Shown here: piece by piece, positions 4,298-29,294 of the stretch
Layout: each line of letters starts with the position of its first letter
Position numbering within the stretch: the stretch's first letter is position 1
NCBI GenBank assembly: GCA_018698135.1
Contig: JABINZ010000221.1
Coordinates: forward strand, 1-35,383
Length of the DNA stretch: 35,383 nucleotides
Direction of reading: 5' to 3'
From: Bacteroidota bacterium
Lineage (GTDB): Bacteria; Bacteroidota; Bacteroidia; CAILMK01; JAAYUY01
The notes under the pieces: generated by a model
Told to the model about the DNA's origin: nothing
Seen by the model: the letters and a program-made list of their open reading frames with translations, nothing else
Database searches by the model: none
Translations under genes and position numbers: made by a program

Positions 4298-5953
4298 TTA
4301 TGAGTCGTTTTTGCTTTCTTGATCATATTCTTTGAGCCATTCAGCACAGGCGTCAATACTTTTAAATAAATATTTTTCAGGAATAATATTCGGGACAAAT
4401 CGGTTTCTTTTAAGTAAATAAAGTGGTTGTGCTTGTGTCATTGTAAAAACGACAACAATGCCCATTTTTTGCATTTCTTTAATAACTTCTTCGAGAGCGT
4501 GTAAACCTGTTTGATCAATAAATGGAACTTGCTTCATCCTGAAAATGATCACTTTTGCATCAGTGGGTATTTTGTTTATACGATCAAGTATTTTAGCCGC
4601 TACACCAAAAAATATAGGTCCATCAAATCGTTTGATATAAACATTTTTCCATTTATTTAAGTCCAGATTTGACTCATCTTCCCAGGCTATTTCTCTGTCG
4701 TATTTGTCAACTTTGTCAAGTGATGTATTATGCTCTACCATATCACTTGCTTTACGCATAAATATGACAGACGCAATCACCATACCTATGCCAACAGCTT
4801 GTAATAAATCGACAAAAACGGTTAGAAAAAGAACCGTAATTAACACAAGTGCATCTGATTTAGGGATAAGAAAAATGCTTTTTAAACCTTTCAAATCAAT
4901 GATACTTATACCAACAGTAATTAAAATACCTGCCAGAGCAGCCAGTGGTATGAATGCAACATATTTTGCTAATCCTAAAACAATTAACAATAATAGCAGA
5001 GCATGTATGACACCTGATAATTTTGAATGACCACCTGATTTAATATTTACTACAGTTCGCATGGTTGCCCCAGCTCCAGGTATTCCACCAAAAAGAGATG
5101 CCAGCATATTACCAATTCCCTGACCAATAAGCTCCTGATTACTTTTATGCTTGGTTCGGGTTATATTATCGGCAACAACTGAAGTTAATAAGGTGTCAAT
5201 TGTACCCAAGCCTGCTAATGTAATAGCAGGTATTAAAATTAAACTTAAATCAGAAAGGTTGATGCCTCCTAAGGCAGATATTTTAATTGAAGGAAGGCCT
5301 GTAGGCATTGTTCCAATTGCAGGAGTTTCGAGAGAGAAAAGAACACTTACAAGGGTAATGATCAGCAATGCAACCAATGTGCTTGGGACGACTTTTGTAA
5401 TTCTTGGGAAAAGGTAAATGATTAAAACTGTTCCTAATGCTAATAATACAGATGTGTTATTGGTGATACTCAAGGCTTGTGGAAGTTCTTTAACAACATC
5501 CATAATTCTGACAGGAGAAGTCAATCCTAAAAGGGGGAATACCTGGAAAATAATAATAATTACGCCAATTCCGCTCATAAAACCCGATAGAACAGGATAG
5601 GGGATGTATTTTACGTATTTCCCAATTTTTAAAATGCCAAAAATAATTTGAAATGCGCCTGCCAACAGAAATGTCAGGATAATGATTCCCCAGGCATGTT
5701 CAATGTCTCCATATTTTGAAATAGCTAGAGCAACAACAGTCGCTGATAATATTGTCATTGGTCCTGTTGGACCACTAATTTGAGTTTTTGTTCCCCCTAA
5801 AATTGAAGCAATCAAACCCAATACAATTGCTCCATATAAACCTGCGCTAGCACCCAATCCTGATTGAACACCAAAAGCCAATGCCAAGGGTAAGGCAACT
5901 ATTCCAGCTGTTAAGCCTCCAAAAATATCTCCTTTTAAATTCGACAACCTCAT
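4298..5953 (-). CDS. SulP/SLC26-family inorganic anion transporter with STAS domain
   Basis: A 551-residue inner-membrane transporter. The N-terminal about 400 residues are strongly hydrophobic with the SulP hallmarks GDIFGGLTAGIVALPLALAF and GPTGPM. A further conserved stretch, GLGTIDTLLTSVVAD, is followed by GNMLASLFGG. Residues about 435-545 form a cytoplasmic STAS domain (DGPIFFGVA, FIDQTGLHALEEV). Family members move sulfate, bicarbonate or other anions with H+ or Na+. The sequence alone does not settle the substrate. It is followed two bases later by ywbE and lies 64 bases downstream of the DEAD-box gene on the same strand, so it may be partly read through from there. Confidence 0.92.
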   Translation of the reverse strand: MRLSNLKGDIFGGLTAGIVALPLALAFGVQSGLGASAGLYGAIVLGLIASILGGTKTQISGPTGPMTILSATVVALAISKYGDIEHAWGIIILTFLLAGAFQIIFGILKIGKYVKYIPYPVLSGFMSGIGVIIIIFQVFPLLGLTSPVRIMDVVKELPQALSITNNTSVLLALGTVLIIYLFPRITKVVPSTLVALLIITLVSVLFSLETPAIGTMPTGLPSIKISALGGINLSDLSLILIPAITLAGLGTIDTLLTSVVADNITRTKHKSNQELIGQGIGNMLASLFGGIPGAGATMRTVVNIKSGGHSKLSGVIHALLLLLIVLGLAKYVAFIPLAALAGILITVGISIIDLKGLKSIFLIPKSDALVLITVLFLTVFVDLLQAVGIGMVIASVIFMRKASDMVEHNTSLDKVDKYDREIAWEDESNLDLNKWKNVYIKRFDGPIFFGVAAKILDRINKIPTDAKVIIFRMKQVPFIDQTGLHALEEVIKEMQKMGIVVVFTMTQAQPLYLLKRNRFVPNIIPEKYLFKSIDACAEWLKEYDQESKNDS

Positions 5954-6017
5954 TTAGTAAATCTTGATTATACTAATAAACCTGATTTCTTTTCTGTTTA
6001 AATATATAAATGAATGT

Positions 6018-7277
6018 TTAAAATGCTCTGGCTCTATTAAATCTCTTTCTGGGTGAACTATTTGCAGTAAACTTTGGATTTGCCTGCACAGGATTACGCC
6101 TTGGAGGACGTGGCTGTTTAATAGCTTTTACAGGATTATGATCTATCAGCGGATAATCATGATCATCAACAACAACTAACTTTTTGGAGATTAATTTCTC
6201 GACATCCTGCAAATAAGGTTTTTCTTCTGCCATACAAAAGGAGATAGCTGTTCCTTTTGCTCCAGCTCTACCTGTTCGTCCAATGCGGTGGACATAGGTT
6301 TCTGCAATATTGGATATGTCATAATTGAAAACAAATTCTAATTCATCAATATCAATTCCTCGGGCAGCTATATCTGTTGCCACTAATACACGCGTTGTTT
6401 GCTTCTTGAAGTTCTTTAATGCATTTTGTCTTGCATTTTGTGCTTTGTTGCCATGAATAGCTTCAGCAGTAATATTACTTCTTTTCAGAACTTTAACCAC
6501 TTTATCTGCACCATGTTTGGTACGAGTAAACACCAAGGCTGTTTTGATATTATCATCCTTTAAAATATCAATCAATAAAGCATTTTTATTCCCTTTATCT
6601 ACAAAGTAAACATATTGCTTGATGATATCTACAGTTGAAGAAACAGGCGTAACACTCACTTTTTTAGGATGATGTAAAATTGTAGCGGCCAACTTTGTGA
6701 TTTCAATAGGCATCGTAGCTGAAAAGAATAGGGATTGTCTGCGTTTTGGTAGTGCAGATATAATTCTTTTTACATCATGAATAAAACCCATATCGAGCAT
6801 ACGATCAGCTTCATCAAGTACTAAAATCTCAACATCTGAAAGACTTATAAAGCCTTGGTTCATAAGATCTAATAATCGGCCTGGTGTTGCAACAAGAATG
6901 TCAACTCCATATTGTAGTGCTCTTGTTTGCGGATTTTGATTGACTCCACCAAATATAACCGAGCAGCGTTGCTGCGTATGTCGTCCATATGCATTAAAAC
7001 TTTCACCAATTTGAATGGCTAGCTCTCTGGTTGGAGTGACAATTAAACTCCGTATGACTCTTTTTTTCTGGTGTGATTTTTTTGTTTTTAATAATTGTAA
7101 AATTGGGATGGCAAAAGCGGCTGTTTTGCCAGTTCCGGTTTGTGCACAGCCTAGCAGGTCTGTTCCTTTTAATATAATTGGGATAGATTGAGCTTGTATA
7201 GGTGTTGGAGTAGTATAACCTTCTTCTTCAACAGCTTTTAAAATAGGTTCTATTATGTCTAATGATCTAAAATTCAT
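6018..7277 (-). CDS. DEAD-box ATP-dependent RNA helicase, RhlE type
   Basis: A 419-residue helicase with a full motif set. It has the Q motif GYTTPTPIQ, motif I AQTGTGKT, Ia PTRELA, Ib TPGRLLD, II DEAD, III SAT, V ARGIDID and [12 protein letters not shown]. After about residue 370 comes a basic, proline- and arginine-rich tail ([18 protein letters not shown]). Such tails bind RNA in bacterial DEAD-box proteins acting in ribosome assembly, mRNA turnover and cold adaptation. The ATG at 7277 precedes the usual N-terminus MNFRSLDI. The leader upstream holds two related palindromes (7311-7326 and 7371-7389). A second, different DEAD-box gene lies at 26294. Confidence 0.93.
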
Positions 7278-7310
7278 ATAATTATTATAATGTTAATGTA
7301 ATAGTTTACA

Positions 7311-7326
7311 AACCAGATATCTGGTT
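7311..7326. promoter_or_regulatory. Palindromic site AACCAGATATCTGGTT
   Basis: A perfect 16-bp palindrome with no loop, 34 bases upstream of the RhlE-type helicase start. The absence of a loop argues for a dimeric DNA-binding protein site rather than an RNA hairpin. A related copy lies 61-62 bases away (centre to centre) at 7371-7389. Confidence 0.5.
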
Positions 7327-7370
7327 TTGTCTTTGTTTTCGTTTTGTTTAAATGATTTGTGTAGCTTTCT

Positions 7371-7389
7371 ACCAAATAATTTATCTGGT
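7371..7389. promoter_or_regulatory. Second palindromic site ACCAAATAATTTATCTGGT
   Basis: A 19-bp imperfect palindrome with one mismatch between arms. Its half-sites ACCAAATA/TATCTGGT match those of 7311-7326. It lies in the shared region between the helicase and the PepSY-like lipoprotein genes, on the far side of the first palindrome from the helicase. Confidence 0.45.
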
Positions 7390-7598
7390 CTTTACACATA
7401 TGCTTCATACATGCAGAAAGACTGATAGTGCAATAATTTAGCAATTAAGGCTACACATAAGGTGTGACTTAAGCGGCAAATGTAGGCAAATTAAGCTTAT
7501 GAATGATATCTGCACTAAAACGTTATTAAATAGCAGTGAATATGAATTAAAATGCTTACTGAAAATAGTTAATAAAGCTATGCCTGCGATTTTAGTCG

Positions 7599-7606
7599 TA
7601 ACTTTG
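7599..7606 (+). promoter_or_regulatory. -7 promoter element (TAACTTTG) of the PepSY-like lipoprotein gene
   Basis: An exact TAnnTTTG box 21 bases before the ATG at 7628. It lies inside the longer open frame that begins at 7499, so it supports the 7628 start. No clear -33 TTTG is visible. Confidence 0.6.
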
Positions 7607-7627
7607 ATCAAACAAATACAAAAAACG

Positions 7628-8152
7628 ATGAAATCATTTAAAGTTATTGCGATCCTATTATTGGGACTTTCATTTTTTTCATGCAGTGAAGGAAATATTT
7701 TTTCAAATGAGGATGAGTCTTCTATTGAAGTTCCAAAAGTAGTATTAGATGCATTTGCAACTAAATATGCTAATGCTAAATCTATTGAATGGGAAAAAGA
7801 AAATACGATTTATATAGCAGAGTTTAAATTAGATAATGTTGAGTTTGAAGCTGAATTCGATATGGATGGATTCTGGATGCAAACCGAGAAAGAAGTAGAT
7901 GTCAAGGATTTACCTGCTGCAGTTATTGCAAAAATAAATACAGATTACCCTGATTTCAAAATTGAAGAGGCTGAGGAAGTAGAAACTTCTGAAATTACCT
8001 ATTTTGAGCTGGAAATTGAAAATGGCGAAATGGAATATGAAATAGGGATTGACAATAGTGGTAAAATCCTTTTTGTTGAAGAAGAAGATGAAGATGACAA
8101 TCAAGATGGTGATGACAATGATGAAGATAACGATGAGGAGCATGAAGATTAG
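7628..8152 (+). CDS. PepSY-like (BLIP-fold type) lipoprotein with acidic C-terminal tail
   Basis: A 174-residue predicted lipoprotein. The start at 7628 gives a signal peptide with a hydrophobic core and an FFSC lipobox at residues about 17-20. It also puts the promoter box (7599-7606) outside the gene. The mature protein has two similar halves, VPKVVLDAFATKYANAKSIEW and LPAAVIAKINTDYPDFKI, as in Bacteroidota PepSY-like proteins (PF11396), whose fold resembles beta-lactamase-inhibitor protein. The last 25 or so residues are almost all Asp and Glu, including DDNQDGDDNDED, which resembles the DxNxDG core of a calcium-binding loop. No function is established for this family. The protein is probably periplasmic or anchored to a membrane. 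Confidence 0.8.
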   Translation: MKSFKVIAILLLGLSFFSCSEGNIFSNEDESSIEVPKVVLDAFATKYANAKSIEWEKENTIYIAEFKLDNVEFEAEFDMDGFWMQTEKEVDVKDLPAAVIAKINTDYPDFKIEEAEEVETSEITYFELEIENGEMEYEIGIDNSGKILFVEEEDEDDNQDGDDNDEDNDEEHED

Positions 8153-8165
8153 ATTCGATTTTGTA

Positions 8166-9398
8166 TTACATGTTAATATAGGGCGATAACTTATTTTCTT
8201 GCCCTAGTTTTTTCCAAATTGCATTTACAGCAACTTCCCATTTCAGGGCAGATACGCCTTCACGCGATCCTATAATCCGATAAGGTTCATTTTTATAATA
8301 GATTTCAAGTCTTTCGTGAACTTGTGGATTAATCGCTTGTAAATCATTGAAATTGAATGTAATTTGCTTGCTATTTTCCTGAAAACACAGATCAATTCTG
8401 TCCATAAACAATTTTACATCTGCCTGACCAATAGATTGCAAATCAGCGTCTTCTTTTCCATAATAAATTTTTGATCCTTTGTCTTCAAACAAGCAATCCT
8501 GATATCCAATTTCAAACTTCTTTTGTATGTCCTCTAAAAGATACTTTTCTTGCCAGTAATACCAATCTCGAATATTATCAAAATGGAGCTTTCCTGTACT
8601 GATTCTTTCAAAGAAACCATAGTCGTTAATGTGTATATCGTAATTGCAATTGCAGCATGTGAAACTATTCCCACCCACTCTGAACGGATCAATAGCATGA
8701 CAATCAGGACAAAGATATAAGGCGTGATTAATATGCTCTGCCTTACGATCTAAATGAATTATGTTTTTGTTTTTCTTTTGATAGGCTACTTCATCATGTT
8801 TTAAGGTGTTTTGTAATCGAGCAAATATTTCTTCTTCCGATAATTTGTGAACTTCTTCTTTATTTAGTAGCAATATGTATTCTACTTCAACTTTCGTTTT
8901 TCTAATTTTCTTCGACCATCTGGGATTGAATAAATTCATTCCTTTTAAGATGGAAACTACTACAGGAACATCTAACAGCTTTATTAATTTGACAATGGAT
9001 TTGTCCATTTTAAAACTTGAACCAGCCCAGTTCCGAACCGCCTCAGGAAAAATACCCACATTCTCACCTTGTTGAATGACTGAAATAATATCACGGATAA
9101 CCTGGGTATCACGCATATTTTTCTTCTTCGCAATGGTACCAAGGCGAGTGAGAAAGAAATTCGTTGTTTTGTGACGAAATGCAGCATCAGAAGATACAAA
9201 ATGAGTGAACTTTGGCAAGAAATGACCTGCAATAAAAGGATCCCAAAAACCAACATGATTGCTCAAAAGCAAATAAGGTGATTTAAGCTTTTTGACCTCA
9301 GAGGGTAATTTCTTTTTGATACGATAGTAAAGAATGAATAAGGAAAATACAAGGTACGTAAGAAATCGAATGTAATATTTTGTCGGATAGGATTTCAT
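8166..9398 (-). CDS. Lysophospholipid acyltransferase (PlsC-like) with C-terminal zinc ribbon
   Basis: A 410-residue protein. Residues 10-25 form one membrane segment. Residues about 40-190 are a PlsC-type acyltransferase with catalytic NHVGFWD (His48, Asp53) and the phosphate-binding GIFPEA (115-120). This family transfers an acyl chain to lysophosphatidate or a related lipid at the inner membrane. After it comes a second part not found in ordinary PlsC: CPDC (230/233) and CCNC (248/251), a zinc-ribbon-like element. About 150 residues without a recognised domain follow. It starts three bases after the LRR gene stops, so the two form an operon. It converges on the PepSY gene with 13 bases between stops. 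Confidence 0.85.
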   Translation of the reverse strand: MKSYPTKYYIRFLTYLVFSLFILYYRIKKKLPSEVKKLKSPYLLLSNHVGFWDPFIAGHFLPKFTHFVSSDAAFRHKTTNFFLTRLGTIAKKKNMRDTQVIRDIISVIQQGENVGIFPEAVRNWAGSSFKMDKSIVKLIKLLDVPVVVSILKGMNLFNPRWSKKIRKTKVEVEYILLLNKEEVHKLSEEEIFARLQNTLKHDEVAYQKKNKNIIHLDRKAEHINHALYLCPDCHAIDPFRVGGNSFTCCNCNYDIHINDYGFFERISTGKLHFDNIRDWYYWQEKYLLEDIQKKFEIGYQDCLFEDKGSKIYYGKEDADLQSIGQADVKLFMDRIDLCFQENSKQITFNFNDLQAINPQVHERLEIYYKNEPYRIIGSREGVSALKWEVAVNAIWKKLGQENKLSPYINM

Positions 9399-24506: not shown

Positions 24507-26111
24507 TTACTGCCTTTCGAACTTCAGAATTTGTGTGCCCTCTGATGAGTGAAAATGCAGAAAGTATATCCCAGGACGTAAATTAGACACATCTATTTGT
24601 TGTTCTTCGTAATTAGTCATTTTGTAAATGGTTCTCCCAATAAAATCATTCACTAAAATTTCATATTCAATATTTCTGCTGTTTGGCATTTCGATCTTTA
24701 AAATATCACGACAAGGATTGTTGATAATTCGAATAAATTGCTTTGGAATTTCAAAATTTTGAATAGATGTAAAACACAACTGAATTTCTTCTGGTGTTGC
24801 ATCATCACTTTCCCCAGCTGAAACACTTTGCCATATAGGAACTGTTGTTGCAATAGATGAGGTTGCATTGTATGTTGAAATAGAAGGGTTATATATTTGG
24901 GGATTGAAGTTTTTTTGGTTGCAGCCAGAATTTCCTGAAAGATTTGTTTTCACAACATAATACTCATAATCTGCTGTTCGCATAAATTGAGCTAAAGAAT
25001 TTGTATAGCCAGATATGATAATTCGGTTGCTGGACAATAATTGTGTATTGTTTATCTGAGTTCCCTCTTCATCCAAACTTCCATAGGTTGTAAACCAGTC
25101 GAGTGAACCACTCATGTTAAATTTAGCCAAGTATAAATCCCGATTACCTGCACCGAAACTTTCTGTAAAACCTCCCAGGTAATAACCAGAAAAAGAAGTT
25201 TGAAATAAAGACCCGATTATGTCATCTTTGTTACCTCCAAAGGCTTTTGTCCAGATTTCGACTCCATTATTGTCTGTTTTAATCAATAAGTTATCAGCCA
25301 TACCTGCCCCAAACGAGGAAGTCATTCCGCCAATTAATAAATCTCCATTTGCCTCCTGAATAATACAATAAGCATATTCATGAGCATTTCCTCCATAAAC
25401 CTTTGCCCACAAAATATTACCAGATGAACTCATTTTTATTAAAAGGATATCATGCTTTCCAGCTCCAAAAGAATAAGTTGCTCCAACAATAAAATAGTTG
25501 CCGTCATTACTCTCAATTATCATATCTCCCCAATCATTCTGATGAGCTGAAAAAAGTTTTGTCCACATGAGTTTACCATCACTATCTATCTGAATCACAG
25601 CAATGTCTTTTAATCCTGAATTATAATACCTGCTATCTCCTAAAATGATGTAATTATGATCGCTTGTTTCCAATACATACCAATTCAGGTCTTCAGCTGT
25701 TGTACCAAAGGTTTTTTGCCATATCACATCACCCATATGGTCTGTTTTGATCACATATATATCATAATCTCCAACACCAAAGCTTTTTGTATGTCCTCCG
25801 ATCAAAAATCCACCATCTGAAGTGTTAATCAATGACTTTGGATCATCATCGCTCTCACCTCCATAAGTTTTTGACCATAATATATTTCCTGAGCTATCAA
25901 ATTTTGAAAGCATGATATCCATTTCTCCCTGACCAAAACTTGTCGAATAACCAACAATCGCATATCCATTATCCTCCGTTACTGCAAGTGATCGTGGTTG
26001 TTCATCTGCACCTCCTCCATATTTTTTCTGAAATATAGATTGAGCATGATTGATAGAGAAATATAATAAGAAGAATGTACAAAAGGCAAGTCGAGTAATC
26101 ATGACTTTCAT
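24507..26111 (-). CDS. T9SS-secreted protein with seven 52-residue repeats
   Basis: A 534-residue protein with a signal peptide (MKVMITRLAFCTFFLLYFS, ending NHAQ). Residues about 28-395 consist of seven repeats of about 52 residues. Each contains GGxxDD, a DGGYxIxGxTxSFGxG core, DxxLxKxDxxGxxxWxKxYGG and so on. Seven such units suggest a single seven-bladed propeller. Residues about 460-534 are a T9SS type A sorting domain (IINNPCRDILKIEM, NDFIGRTIYK, LRPGIYFLHF). The ATG at 26111 is chosen because the in-frame TTG at 26129 lies inside the promoter box. The substrate or partner is unknown. Confidence 0.85.
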   Translation of the reverse strand: MKVMITRLAFCTFFLLYFSINHAQSIFQKKYGGGADEQPRSLAVTEDNGYAIVGYSTSFGQGEMDIMLSKFDSSGNILWSKTYGGESDDDPKSLINTSDGGFLIGGHTKSFGVGDYDIYVIKTDHMGDVIWQKTFGTTAEDLNWYVLETSDHNYIILGDSRYYNSGLKDIAVIQIDSDGKLMWTKLFSAHQNDWGDMIIESNDGNYFIVGATYSFGAGKHDILLIKMSSSGNILWAKVYGGNAHEYAYCIIQEANGDLLIGGMTSSFGAGMADNLLIKTDNNGVEIWTKAFGGNKDDIIGSLFQTSFSGYYLGGFTESFGAGNRDLYLAKFNMSGSLDWFTTYGSLDEEGTQINNTQLLSSNRIIISGYTNSLAQFMRTADYEYYVVKTNLSGNSGCNQKNFNPQIYNPSISTYNATSSIATTVPIWQSVSAGESDDATPEEIQLCFTSIQNFEIPKQFIRIINNPCRDILKIEMPNSRNIEYEILVNDFIGRTIYKMTNYEEQQIDVSNLRPGIYFLHFHSSEGTQILKFERQ

Positions 26112-26126
26112 CTTAAATTGTTTTCT

Positions 26127-26134
26127 CAAATATA
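26127..26134 (-). promoter_or_regulatory. -7 promoter element (TATATTTG) of the second T9SS gene
   Basis: The minus strand reads TATATTTG, an exact TAnnTTTG, 15 bases before the ATG at 26111. An in-frame TTG overlaps the box, so that TTG cannot be the translation start. Confidence 0.65.
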
Positions 26135-26293
26135 CAACATATTTGAATCGAGCTTGCTTGTAAGTGCAAATTTATTTTGTTTATAGCACTCTCAATTGTG
26201 GTTGTAAATTGCTGTAATTTAGTTATTTCTGTATGATATGTGCTGGGTCATTCTGATAGTTGATAATAATCAAACCCAAATTTGCAAAAAGCC

Positions 26294-27511
26294 TCAATTT
26301 TTACCTCTGTAGCTCTTCTTCTTTTTGTAGTAATTCCTTTTGGAGGTTGATTTTGGTTTTCGGTCTTCCCAAATCGGTCCAGGACCAATATCAGCTGGAA
26401 GTTCAAGCTTTGGAATAGCGTATTCAATCAATTGTTCAATTCTTCTAAACTTGTGCATATCCTTCGGATTTACAAGTGTTAATGCCTCTCCTTTTGCATT
26501 TACTCTGGCCGTTCGTCCAACTCGGTGCACATAATCTTCTGCATCATGAGGAACATCAAAGTTAACAACCAAATTAATCTCCTTCACATCTATTCCACGA
26601 CTCATTACATCAGTAGCTACTAATATCCGAATTTGTTTGGCCATAAATCCTCGGAGTACACTCTCTCTGCTAGCTTGATCTAAATTTGATGAAATACCTT
26701 TTGCAGCAAGTTTAGCTCTATTCAATGATCTGACGATTTCATTCACCATGCTTTTGGTGGACGTAAATATAATAATGCTGTCGAAATGCTTACGTTCAAC
26801 AATTAATTGTGTTAAAAGGGCTACTTTTTGTTCATCATAACAAACATAAGCCTTATGATCTATTCCTTCAGCAGGTTTTGAAATGGCCAATGATATTTCA
26901 AGTGGATTACGTAAAATCTTTTTTGCTAATTGCCGAATATTGTTAGGCATAGTTGCGCTAAACATCAAAGTCTGTCTGTCTTTTGGCAAATGCATAATGA
27001 TTTTTTGGATATCATCAATGAAACCCATATCAAACATCCGATCGGCCTCATCCAAGACCAAATGCTTCAGATTATCAAATTTGGCATTTCCTGATTGTAA
27101 GTGCGACAACAAACGTCCTGGAGTGGCAACAATAATGTCTGTCCCATTTTGTAAAGCATCTTGCTCTATAACCCAATCTTTTCCATCTCCACCGCCATAT
27201 ACGGCAATTGAACCTACTGGGATAAAATAGGAGAGCCCTTGTATTTGTTGTTCAATTTGTACTGCTAATTCTCGTGTTGGTACGATGATTAATGTATTGG
27301 TTGTATTGTTATTCTGACCACTTAGTTTATTGAGTATTGGTAATACGAAAGCAACTGTTTTTCCTGTACCAGTTTGTGCGCATGCTATTAAATCGCTGTT
27401 TTCTAAAATCAAGGGAATGGCTTTCTCCTGAATAGGTGTGGCTGTATCAAAGCCCATATAAGAAATGGCTTCCAAGAGAGGTTCCTCAAGATTAAATTCA
27501 GAAAATTTCAT
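26294..27511 (-). CDS. DEAD-box ATP-dependent RNA helicase (second copy)
   Basis: A 405-residue helicase. Q motif GFDTATPIQ, motif I AQTGTGKT, Ia PTRELA, Ib TPGRLL, II DEAD, III SAT, V SRGIDV and VI HRVGRTAR are all present. The tail is short and strongly basic (KRNYYKKKKSYRGKN). It is clearly diverged from the helicase at 6018 throughout. Translation from 27511 (MKFSEFNLEEPL) is preferred over the frame open to 27559, whose start lies within the promoter box at 27557-27564. Its leader carries a perfect stem-loop (27530-27548) close to the predicted mRNA 5' end. Confidence 0.93.
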   Translation of the reverse strand: MKFSEFNLEEPLLEAISYMGFDTATPIQEKAIPLILENSDLIACAQTGTGKTVAFVLPILNKLSGQNNNTTNTLIIVPTRELAVQIEQQIQGLSYFIPVGSIAVYGGGDGKDWVIEQDALQNGTDIIVATPGRLLSHLQSGNAKFDNLKHLVLDEADRMFDMGFIDDIQKIIMHLPKDRQTLMFSATMPNNIRQLAKKILRNPLEISLAISKPAEGIDHKAYVCYDEQKVALLTQLIVERKHFDSIIIFTSTKSMVNEIVRSLNRAKLAAKGISSNLDQASRESVLRGFMAKQIRILVATDVMSRGIDVKEINLVVNFDVPHDAEDYVHRVGRTARVNAKGEALTLVNPKDMHKFRRIEQLIEYAIPKLELPADIGPGPIWEDRKPKSTSKRNYYKKKKSYRGKN

Positions 27512-27529
27512 GTAATAATTTAATTTGCG

Positions 27530-27548
27530 ATGTTCTATCACAGAACAT
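27530..27548 (-). promoter_or_regulatory. Stem-loop in the 5' leader of the second DEAD-box helicase
   Basis: ATGTTCT (27530-27536) and AGAACAT (27542-27548) are perfect 7-bp arms around a five-base loop. The promoter box at 27557-27564 lies just upstream on the minus strand, so the transcript would begin within a few bases of this hairpin. It may protect the 5' end or regulate the message. It could also be an operator. Confidence 0.45.
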
Positions 27549-27556
27549 TTGAAATA

Positions 27557-27564
27557 CAAAATTA
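27557..27564 (-). promoter_or_regulatory. -7 promoter element (TAATTTTG) of the second DEAD-box helicase
   Basis: The minus strand reads TAATTTTG, an exact TAnnTTTG, 45 bases before the ATG at 27511. Confidence 0.55.
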
Positions 27565-27833
27565 ATACTATTTAATTTGGATGCACTCATTTGTTTTATA
27601 CAGTTCATAACTAGTGAAATAAAACATATTGATTTCATGACCTCTGGTTACAATTAAACAATTATTAAAACAGCAATTACATCTTTTTAGATTTACAAAA
27701 ACTTATATTTTGATTAATGCTGAGATTACAGAAATGAATCGCGATAAATGAATTCTATTTCTCCTGTAAAAAACATAATTTTTGTTCAAAGAAAATACGA
27801 AATTTATATTCTCAGCCGGAATCGCTTCGCTTT

Positions 27834-27888
27834 TACATGATTTTTTTTCATTTGTCTGTAGGTAATTTCAAAGAAAAAAAATCATGTA
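27834..27888. repeat. Long perfect inverted repeat abutting a promoter
   Basis: Left arm TACATGATTTTTTTTC (27834-27849) and right arm GAAAAAAAATCATGTA (27873-27888) are perfectly complementary over 16 bases. Inside them TTTG (27851-27854) can pair with CAAA (27869-27872) after a one-base bulge, leaving a 14-base loop. The right arm shares two bases with the TATATTTG box at 27887-27894, so the structure covers the -33 and spacer region of that promoter. No T-tract follows on either strand, so it is not a typical terminator. Confidence 0.75.
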
Positions 27889-27894
27889 TATTTG
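27887..27894 (+). promoter_or_regulatory. -7 promoter element (TATATTTG) of the unknown exported gene
   Basis: An exact TAnnTTTG box 23 bases before the ATG at 27918. It overlaps the end of the right arm of the inverted repeat. The only -33-like sequence at the right distance is TTTC (27866-27869). Confidence 0.6.
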
Positions 27895-27917
27895 ATTATA
27901 AATCAAAGTCTGCAATC

Positions 27918-29294
27918 ATGAAAAAAATAGCTTTCTTACTCATATGTTTGTTAGCAATTCTTGGATCTGAAGCCAAGGATGTTTCCATCAGTTTGGTAAA
28001 TGAAAACAATTTGCCATTAACTATTTGGATGGGATCCATACCCTCAAAGGATAATATTTATTCGGATGACGAAATTGTCCAACTGAGTGAGCAACTCAAT
28101 ATTACTGCTTATAAGCGAAAAATGGGAGAGGGACGCAAGCTTCAGGTAAGTAAAAAAGGATTACCCAATAATCACGTTTTAATTATTTATGGAAAATTTG
28201 ATGGAGGAAGTCGAACTGCCGTTCAACGATTTTATGTTAAGGAGCTAGGTGCTAAATTGACAACTACTTTTGAAGAAATCAAGATTTATCGTCCAAATAA
28301 ATCCTATTTTAACATTGTGAAGGATTTAGAAAGCAGCGGTGATGCTGTGGAAGGATTTGCTGTTAAAAATGCCAACTTGGTTGGAATGTTTTTTTTATAT
28401 GACGTACAATCAGATACTTATTCCGATGTATTTGTTTTTGATCCAAGCATTAAATTACCAATCGAAGAGCTTGAGCAAAACAGTAATGAGGTAAGTGATT
28501 TTATATCAAAAAATGCTACAGCACCTTTTCATAATCTTTCAGGAAAATTGGTTCGTAAAATTCCAGAAGAAACAGATGAGGTATTTACTGAAGTGGTATT
28601 TCCTGGATATACCCAAAGAGAACAGTTTTTTGGTGATAAAGATTTTAAATTTTTGACATGGTCTATTACCAATAGTCAGGAAGTTCAAACCAAACTTGAT
28701 AAACAGCAATTTTTACCGCTTTACAATTCATGTAGTTTAGCAGATAAGAATGATGTGACTCGAAAATTTATGCGTCAGGTTAATAAGGATGTTGAAGCAA
28801 ACTATCATTTATTCTATATTACAGGAATTCGTAAGTCGGATAAAGTAGAAGTTTTTTCTTCTGAATTTGATGCATTAAACGATTATGATGAACTTTTAGA
28901 TAATGATATTAAAACGAAAACTGGAGCTTTTCGTTTAAATGAAAACACTGAAGTTGTCTTTAGTCAGGAAAACATGGTTAGTTACATCAAAGGGCATGAT
29001 ATAACGCCACTATTATACTTTATGATTGGTAAAAATGAGAGATTTGACGAAACAGAGTTTGATGCCGAGAATTTGGTAGGTATTTACAGAGAATTAGGAA
29101 ATTATATCCAATTACCTGAACTGGATGGTGAAATTGAGGCACTTTATGAACCTGATTTAACCATCTCAACAATCAAGAAAAATCTGCAGGATCCAAAAAT
29201 ATTAGAATCGATTGAAAATCGCTTAAAGGAAGATTTACCAGTTTCAATACCAGCAAAGGCTATTATTGCTGCTGACAAAAAAAACGGAGAGTAG
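27918..29294 (+). CDS. Exported protein of unknown function
   Basis: A 458-residue protein with signal peptide MKKIAFLLICLLAILGSEAK. The start at 27918 is chosen because an in-frame ATG 27 codons earlier lies upstream of the promoter box and inside the hairpin. I do not recognise a domain. The N-terminal about 110 residues look like a beta-sandwich by pattern (VSISLVNENNLPLTIWMGS, HVLIIYGKFDGG). The rest is mixed and acidic with few Cys, and there is no T9SS sorting domain. The MBOAT gene follows after 89 bases on the same strand, so co-transcription is possible but not shown. Confidence 0.75.
   Translation: MKKIAFLLICLLAILGSEAKDVSISLVNENNLPLTIWMGSIPSKDNIYSDDEIVQLSEQLNITAYKRKMGEGRKLQVSKKGLPNNHVLIIYGKFDGGSRTAVQRFYVKELGAKLTTTFEEIKIYRPNKSYFNIVKDLESSGDAVEGFAVKNANLVGMFFLYDVQSDTYSDVFVFDPSIKLPIEELEQNSNEVSDFISKNATAPFHNLSGKLVRKIPEETDEVFTEVVFPGYTQREQFFGDKDFKFLTWSITNSQEVQTKLDKQQFLPLYNSCSLADKNDVTRKFMRQVNKDVEANYHLFYITGIRKSDKVEVFSSEFDALNDYDELLDNDIKTKTGAFRLNENTEVVFSQENMVSYIKGHDITPLLYFMIGKNERFDETEFDAENLVGIYRELGNYIQLPELDGEIEALYEPDLTISTIKKNLQDPKILESIENRLKEDLPVSIPAKAIIAADKKNGE

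Follow-up and report, generated by a model that had tools for sequence, protein, structure and literature searches.

The window analysed here is the whole stretch of 35,383 nucleotides, and its part of interest lies in front of a plus-strand gene for a putatively exported protein to which no Pfam family could be assigned (Table 1). Further upstream, positions 24507-27559 carry a helicase-like gene and a gene of 540 aa (both read by eye), which separate a phosphoglucomutase-like gene from the exported one and are absent from the corresponding place in the sister species.

A long hairpin in front of the exported gene

Upstream of the exported gene, two arms, TACATGATTTTTTTTC (27834-27849) and GAAAAAAAATCATGTA (27873-27888), pair perfectly over 16 bases. 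Beyond this stem come a bulged A at 27850 and four additional pairs, formed by 27851-27854 and 27869-27872, which enclose a loop of 14 bases; exactly this geometry was described in an earlier sequence-only reading of this DNA. The arms include a T8 run (27841-27848) and an A8 run (27874-27881), and the right arm overlaps the first two bases of TATATTTG (27887-27894), a -7-like box. The promoter-like position ascribed to the hairpin by the same reading has also been borne out. The hairpin is confirmed, and its length greatly exceeds what chance would give: within the whole window it is the only perfect stem of at least 14 pairs with a loop shorter than about 40, and when the window was resampled 12 times with a first-order Markov model, the longest perfect stem reached 10-12 pairs. 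The RNA fold of region 27757-27897 has an energy of -25.9 kcal/mol (z = -2.48), and 3 of 200 shuffled sequences were equally stable.

An intrinsic terminator was dropped as a candidate, given that the hairpin is not followed by a 3′ T-tract, as had been noticed before. A search against Rfam returned six sub-threshold matches, all of them to eukaryotic RNA families and judged to be due to chance. The hairpin takes up no more than the right-hand portion of a block of 139 bp (27757-27895) that occurs repeatedly, and the components of this block are collected in Table 1.

Table 1. Features at the locus (positions in the window)
Feature	Position	Strand	Basis and remarks
Left flank (target side), TCTATTT	27754..27760	+	flank consensus TAnnTTT, empty sites
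Core of the putative mobile element, 133 bp, CTCCTG...CATGTATATTT	27761..27893	+	copy alignment, five filled/empty comparisons
Left-end palindrome	27775..27807	+	consensus 11-bp stem ATAAATTTTGT/ACAAAATTTAT, 12-base loop; window copy decayed
Possible small middle hairpin, CGGA...TTCG	27817..27829	+	weak, seen by eye; C80 copy altered here
Right-end palindrome with T8 and A8 runs	27834..27888	+	stem search, fold, copy alignment
-7 promoter box, TATATTTG	27887..27894	+	TATATTT is the right end of the element; G lies outside, as judged from empty sites
Downstream gene, 458 aa	27918..29294	+	signal-like start (by eye); sister orthologue 58% identical

Copies and structure of the element

Copies were sought by a DNA search with positions 27780-27950, by upstream extension of the query and with a covariance model. 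The first DNA search of the own genome (G000) revealed copies on ten other contigs, and extension of the query shifted the left limit of the element to about 27757. Altogether, the own genome bears 14 copies. Ten of them, counting that in the window, are full length (139-141 bp); the nine others of this size show 88-95% identity to that in the window and lie in unrelated flanks. The recurrence expected of a small mobile hairpin, which had been put forward earlier as a check, has thus been found. The covariance model gave 24 matches in the own genome, namely the 14 copies, nine opposite-strand self-matches of the palindrome and one weak hit. When it was applied to four genomes of the family, with 150 of 4,664-8,847 first-look candidates per genome scored, the total besides the copies came to nine opposite-strand self-matches and three weak hits (E 0.099-0.92).

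Two diverged copies are present in the one sister species compared (G001), and among 40 genomes searched for the element only G000 and G001 match; no match was obtained in phage and plasmid collections. A pattern scan over a collection of 84,980 species, with a pattern so strict that diverged kin could escape it and with the window's own genome possibly outside the collection, detected only two copies, both in one Bacteroidetes MAG (isolate BS150m-G14) and letter-for-letter equal to the two copies of the sister species. The element of about 133 bp has so far been found in one bacterial genus only.

The element encodes no gene and carries a palindrome near either end, with stems of 11 bp on the left and 16+4 bp on the right. 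The left-end palindrome has 91.7% of its cells paired in the copies that possess it, being gapped in C80 and G1b. Covariation in the hairpins is weak: a single pair is double-changed, which is matched by 63 of 500 shuffles, and the control slid by -2 scores above the hairpin register. There is no terminal inverted repeat: in the alignment, as judged by eye, neither of the consensus ends CTCCTGTAAA and CATGTATATTT is the inverse of the other. A likeness between the left and right palindromes was considered and dropped as not significant (507 of 1000 shuffles were equally good).

Several copies are incomplete. Copy C80 is shortened to 116 bp by an internal deletion; C186, located 12 nt before a gene start, is only 63 bp long, keeps both ends and is devoid of the hairpin, its core having seemingly been lost between AAAATT repeats; and the right end is missing from both C72a and C114. 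Locus C271 bears two full-length copies as a direct tandem pair, with the second located at the TATATTT end of the first.

Filled and empty sites within promoter-like boxes

Orthologues in the sister species were sought at six loci (the window gene, C54, C192, C80, pssA, and C287); C271, C72b, C98, C251, C164, C186, C72a, C114, and the first G001 copy were outside this comparison. An orthologue was found at five of the six loci, and in all five cases one species is filled while the other has a plain TAnnTTTG at the same point (Table 2). The direction is reversed at pssA, where the element belongs to the sister species and the empty site to the own genome. At C287, the gene next to the element, which looks OsmC-like by eye, could not be matched in the sister genome, hence no empty site there.

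Table 2. Filled and empty sites at five orthologous loci (a slash marks the junction)
Locus	Empty site	Filled site	Remarks
C54	TTAAATTT/GAT	TTAAATTT/CTCC...TATATTT/GAT	
C192	TTAAATTT/GAT	TTATATTT/CTCC...TATATTT/GAA	read directly from sequences
C80	TTAAATTT/GTC	TTAAATTT/CTCC...TATATTT/GAG	
pssA	TTAAATTT/GAA	CTAAGTTT/CTCC...TATATTT/GAA	element in G001
Window gene	GTAGATTT/GAT	TTCTATTT/CTCC...TATATTT/GAT	

The five filled/empty pairs place the insertion point between TAnnTTT and the G of TAnnTTTG; the left flank at the window locus is less certain because the upstream genes differ between the two species. In all 17 left flanks, taken from copies or left ends and including that of a single weak hit (E 0.92), the last three bases are TTT, and 14 of the flanks read TAnnTTT, the TA being absent from the window copy, C164, and C72a. 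The right flank is GA in 12 of the 13 copies with an intact right end. The flank sequence shared by both ends amounts to at most 3-4 bases (TTT), and a duplication of three bases, TTT, is indistinguishable from none. An inverted-repeat MITE was dropped as a candidate for want of a terminal inverted repeat; no duplication beyond TTT was seen either.

At the five compared loci, the element sits inside a -7-like box, and its last seven bases, TATATTT, regenerate this box beside the gene, whereas everything upstream of the regenerated box is replaced by element sequence. Bacteroidota promoters consist of TTTG at -33 and TAnnTTTG at -7. For Bacteroides fragilis, the -7 region is given as TANNTTTG or TAnnTTTG (PMC9330008). 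Among the 13 aligned copies, TATATTTG is present in 11, and the -33 part of any new promoter is degenerate, being occupied in most by TTTC, not TTTG.

The right end is intact in 13 copies, and for 11 of these a start codon on the same strand, opening a reading frame of at least 100 aa, follows 8-72 nt downstream (in ten cases, at 8-36 nt). The two others are C251, which precedes only an ORF of 67 aa, and C287, without a same-strand start codon within 120 nt. The genes downstream are mixed: they encode a nucleoside-recognition (Gate) protein, a Na/sulfate symporter, PKD and sorting-domain proteins, a lipocalin-like DUF4923 protein, a peptidase S9, a CDP-alcohol phosphatidyltransferase, and three products without a Pfam match.

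Location of 11 of 13 copies at promoter distance before genes is what would be expected of a regulon, i.e., of a shared regulated promoter that does not move and is kept alike by selection. Such a regulon is nevertheless highly improbable in view of about 139 bp conserved at 88-95% identity with sharp ends, of the presence or absence of this sequence at orthologous genes of the two species and of the mixed functions of the genes concerned.

The placement before start codons was compared with a background of TAnnTTTGA sites in 130.7 kb of the own DNA, made up of 28 stretches chosen around elements and transposases. The 75 sites found there comprise 7 recognised element ends, 38 coding sites, 15 sites lying at most 60 nt ahead of a start codon and another 15 located elsewhere between genes; after subtraction of two further element ends (C186 and C287), 14 sites before starts, 14 other intergenic and 38 coding ones are left. 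With the 60-nt limit, 10 of 13 copies precede a start codon, which corresponds to a binomial probability of 3e-5 against all sites and 0.046 against intergenic sites. The excess before start codons is thus modest against intergenic TAnnTTTGA sites, and, with only 0.046 in that comparison, the placement before genes can largely be accounted for by loss of genic insertions. A firmer sign of target choice than the placement is the constant register at TTT/G. The corrected background weakens only this side argument, because the filled/empty pairs do not depend on it.

The lengths of the two runs bear on the proposal of the sequence-only reading that the hairpin could serve as a switch of expression, driven by slippage or by a cruciform and special to the exported gene. 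In 13 hairpin-bearing copies, the T-run comprises 6-8 bases, the A-run 7-9 in nine copies and 4-6 in four, and the distance from TTTNAAA to TATATTT is 21-23. The switch could draw on the A8/T8 runs near the box and on this variability of run length and spacer (21-23), which is, however, observed between paralogous copies; the run-length differences are variation between such copies, not within a population. In the two species, the structure or its relics also precede ten genes besides the exported one, which makes 11 of 13 copies in total (that at C186 being hairpinless) and leaves a dedicated switch very improbable. As the same structure precedes other, unrelated genes, the hairpin was not built for the exported gene, and the end of a mobile element accounts for what had been taken for its private switch. 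The A-tract would then belong to the stem of the hairpin as well as to the new spacer.

Likely mode of movement and known relatives

Most probably, the hairpin represents the palindrome at the right end of a mobile element that is about 133 bp long, non-autonomous, moved in an IS200/IS605-like manner and retained in promoters. Insertion sequences of the IS200/IS605 type and their transposase-free relatives are described as lacking inverted repeats and target duplication, bearing a hairpin at each end and inserting 3′ of a fixed tetra- or pentanucleotide (PMC7290912, PMC3119063). By analogy, the element would move as single-stranded DNA under a trans-acting HUH transposase of the IS200/IS605 kind, inserting 3′ of TAnnTTT and being cut at its right end at the target-like TATATTT. 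In the IS200/IS605 family, the right-end cut site resembles the target, and this likeness would explain both the TATATTT end and the rebuilt -7 box. Insertion would leave a working -7 box and supply a new upstream half, and for this reason the element may be kept in promoters.

Whether the target word is the -7 promoter box itself, with the right-end cleavage site again a -7 box, so that each insertion would split a promoter but provide the gene with a mended -7 box and a new upstream half bearing the hairpin, and promoters would be colonised in register and the control of genes rewired with little harm, is a further proposition, the chances of which we consider to be about even. Among the matches listed from the open-licence literature, none was seen to describe in-register targeting of the -7 box by an element.

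The same element and target could also be ascribed to site-specific recombination, in which a CTnDOT-like tyrosine recombinase moves a circle, the left TAnnTTT copy coming from the target and the right one from the element. CTnDOT recombination uses a GTANNTTTGC-like core at both partners, and the CTnDOT-type conjugative transposons of Bacteroides are large and encode their own integrase, unlike the gene-free element of 133 bp; the CTnDOT attachment core presumably resembles the -7 box. Indeed, both ends as well as the empty sites show the TAnnTTT word, and the tandem junction at C271 equals a circle junction. Still, the end palindromes are unneeded for this route and the CTnDOT core had no match in a literature search, so we regard it as unlikely. 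Even less credit can be given to a mini-element of the IS110 type or of another enzyme class with TTT as a short shared core and a structured non-coding end. A short shared core and a structured non-coding end are characteristic of the IS110 type, in agreement with the TTT common to both ends, the structured non-coding DNA and the circle-like tandem junction, but DNA searches of the own genome revealed no longer element with these ends, and this origin is very unlikely.

Returning to the IS200/IS605-like mode, genes of the corresponding class (Y1_Tnp, HUH) are available in both species: 13 in the own genome (C120, C194, C192, C237, C163, C35, C160, C278, C225, C255, C180, C11, and C91) and four in the sister species. 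A profile of the element run with nhmmer against the 17 Y1_Tnp loci of the two draft genomes gave only weak matches (best E 1.1), and no full copy flanks any of these loci; neither an autonomous relative nor a cognate transposase was found among them, and no longer element with the same ends was seen in DNA searches of the own genome. In its behaviour the element seems to resemble palindrome-associated elements that an IS200/IS605-type (HUH) enzyme moves, while membership in the IS200/IS605-derived class is not claimed because no cognate transposase has been found.

Many of the Y1_Tnp genes of the own genome look RAYT-like by eye, and many Y1_Tnp genes are flanked by other palindromes (by eye), e.g., CGCGCAAAATGCGCGC after the C192 gene. 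Mobilisation by the identified RAYT-like genes was dropped, as no flank carries the element. In the sister species, about 60 bp resembling the left end (G001 C78:11440-11506, E 0.92) lie directly upstream of a RAYT-like gene.

Among the closest known systems are the palindrome-associated transposable elements (PATEs) of Haloquadratum and Halanaerobium, which share with the element the absence of terminal inverted repeats and of a clear target duplication, near-terminal palindromes, a length too short for a transposase and core loss between repeats (PMC3119063, PMC7290912); such core deletions are reported for PATE-like elements (PMC3119063). In contrast to PATEs as portrayed there (PMC3119063, PMC7290912), the element has no IS200/IS605 parent among the 17 Y1_Tnp loci of the two draft genomes, its target is a -7-like promoter box, and its right end rebuilds this box.

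The REP/RAYT system is similar in that REPs are extragenic hairpin repeats, and the own genome has 13 Y1_Tnp genes. According to PMC3733652, however, REPs are 20-40 bp long and tagged with GTAG at one foot, while the element has 139 bp and no GTAG at the foot of the hairpin, the only GTAG of the window copy being in the loop. Unlike REPs (PMC3733652), it was not found flanking a RAYT gene and is located upstream of genes in a fixed register. Promoter-carrying MITEs, such as the Correia element and BrickBuilt of Porphyromonas gingivalis, are also small gene-adjacent repeats that may bring promoter sequence (PMC10969869, PMC4596501), but MITEs are defined by terminal inverted repeats, and the element lacks these and enters the -7 box of its target in register.

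Insertions near genes usually damage promoters or alter them at random. If the proposed reading is true, an element that enters the -7 box and restores it in a fixed register would represent a natural promoter-swapping module, and it would show how a transposase, through its choice of target, can turn promoters into a harmless place to live. How the element affects transcription could be measured directly on the five pairs of orthologous genes, one member of each having the element and the other lacking it.
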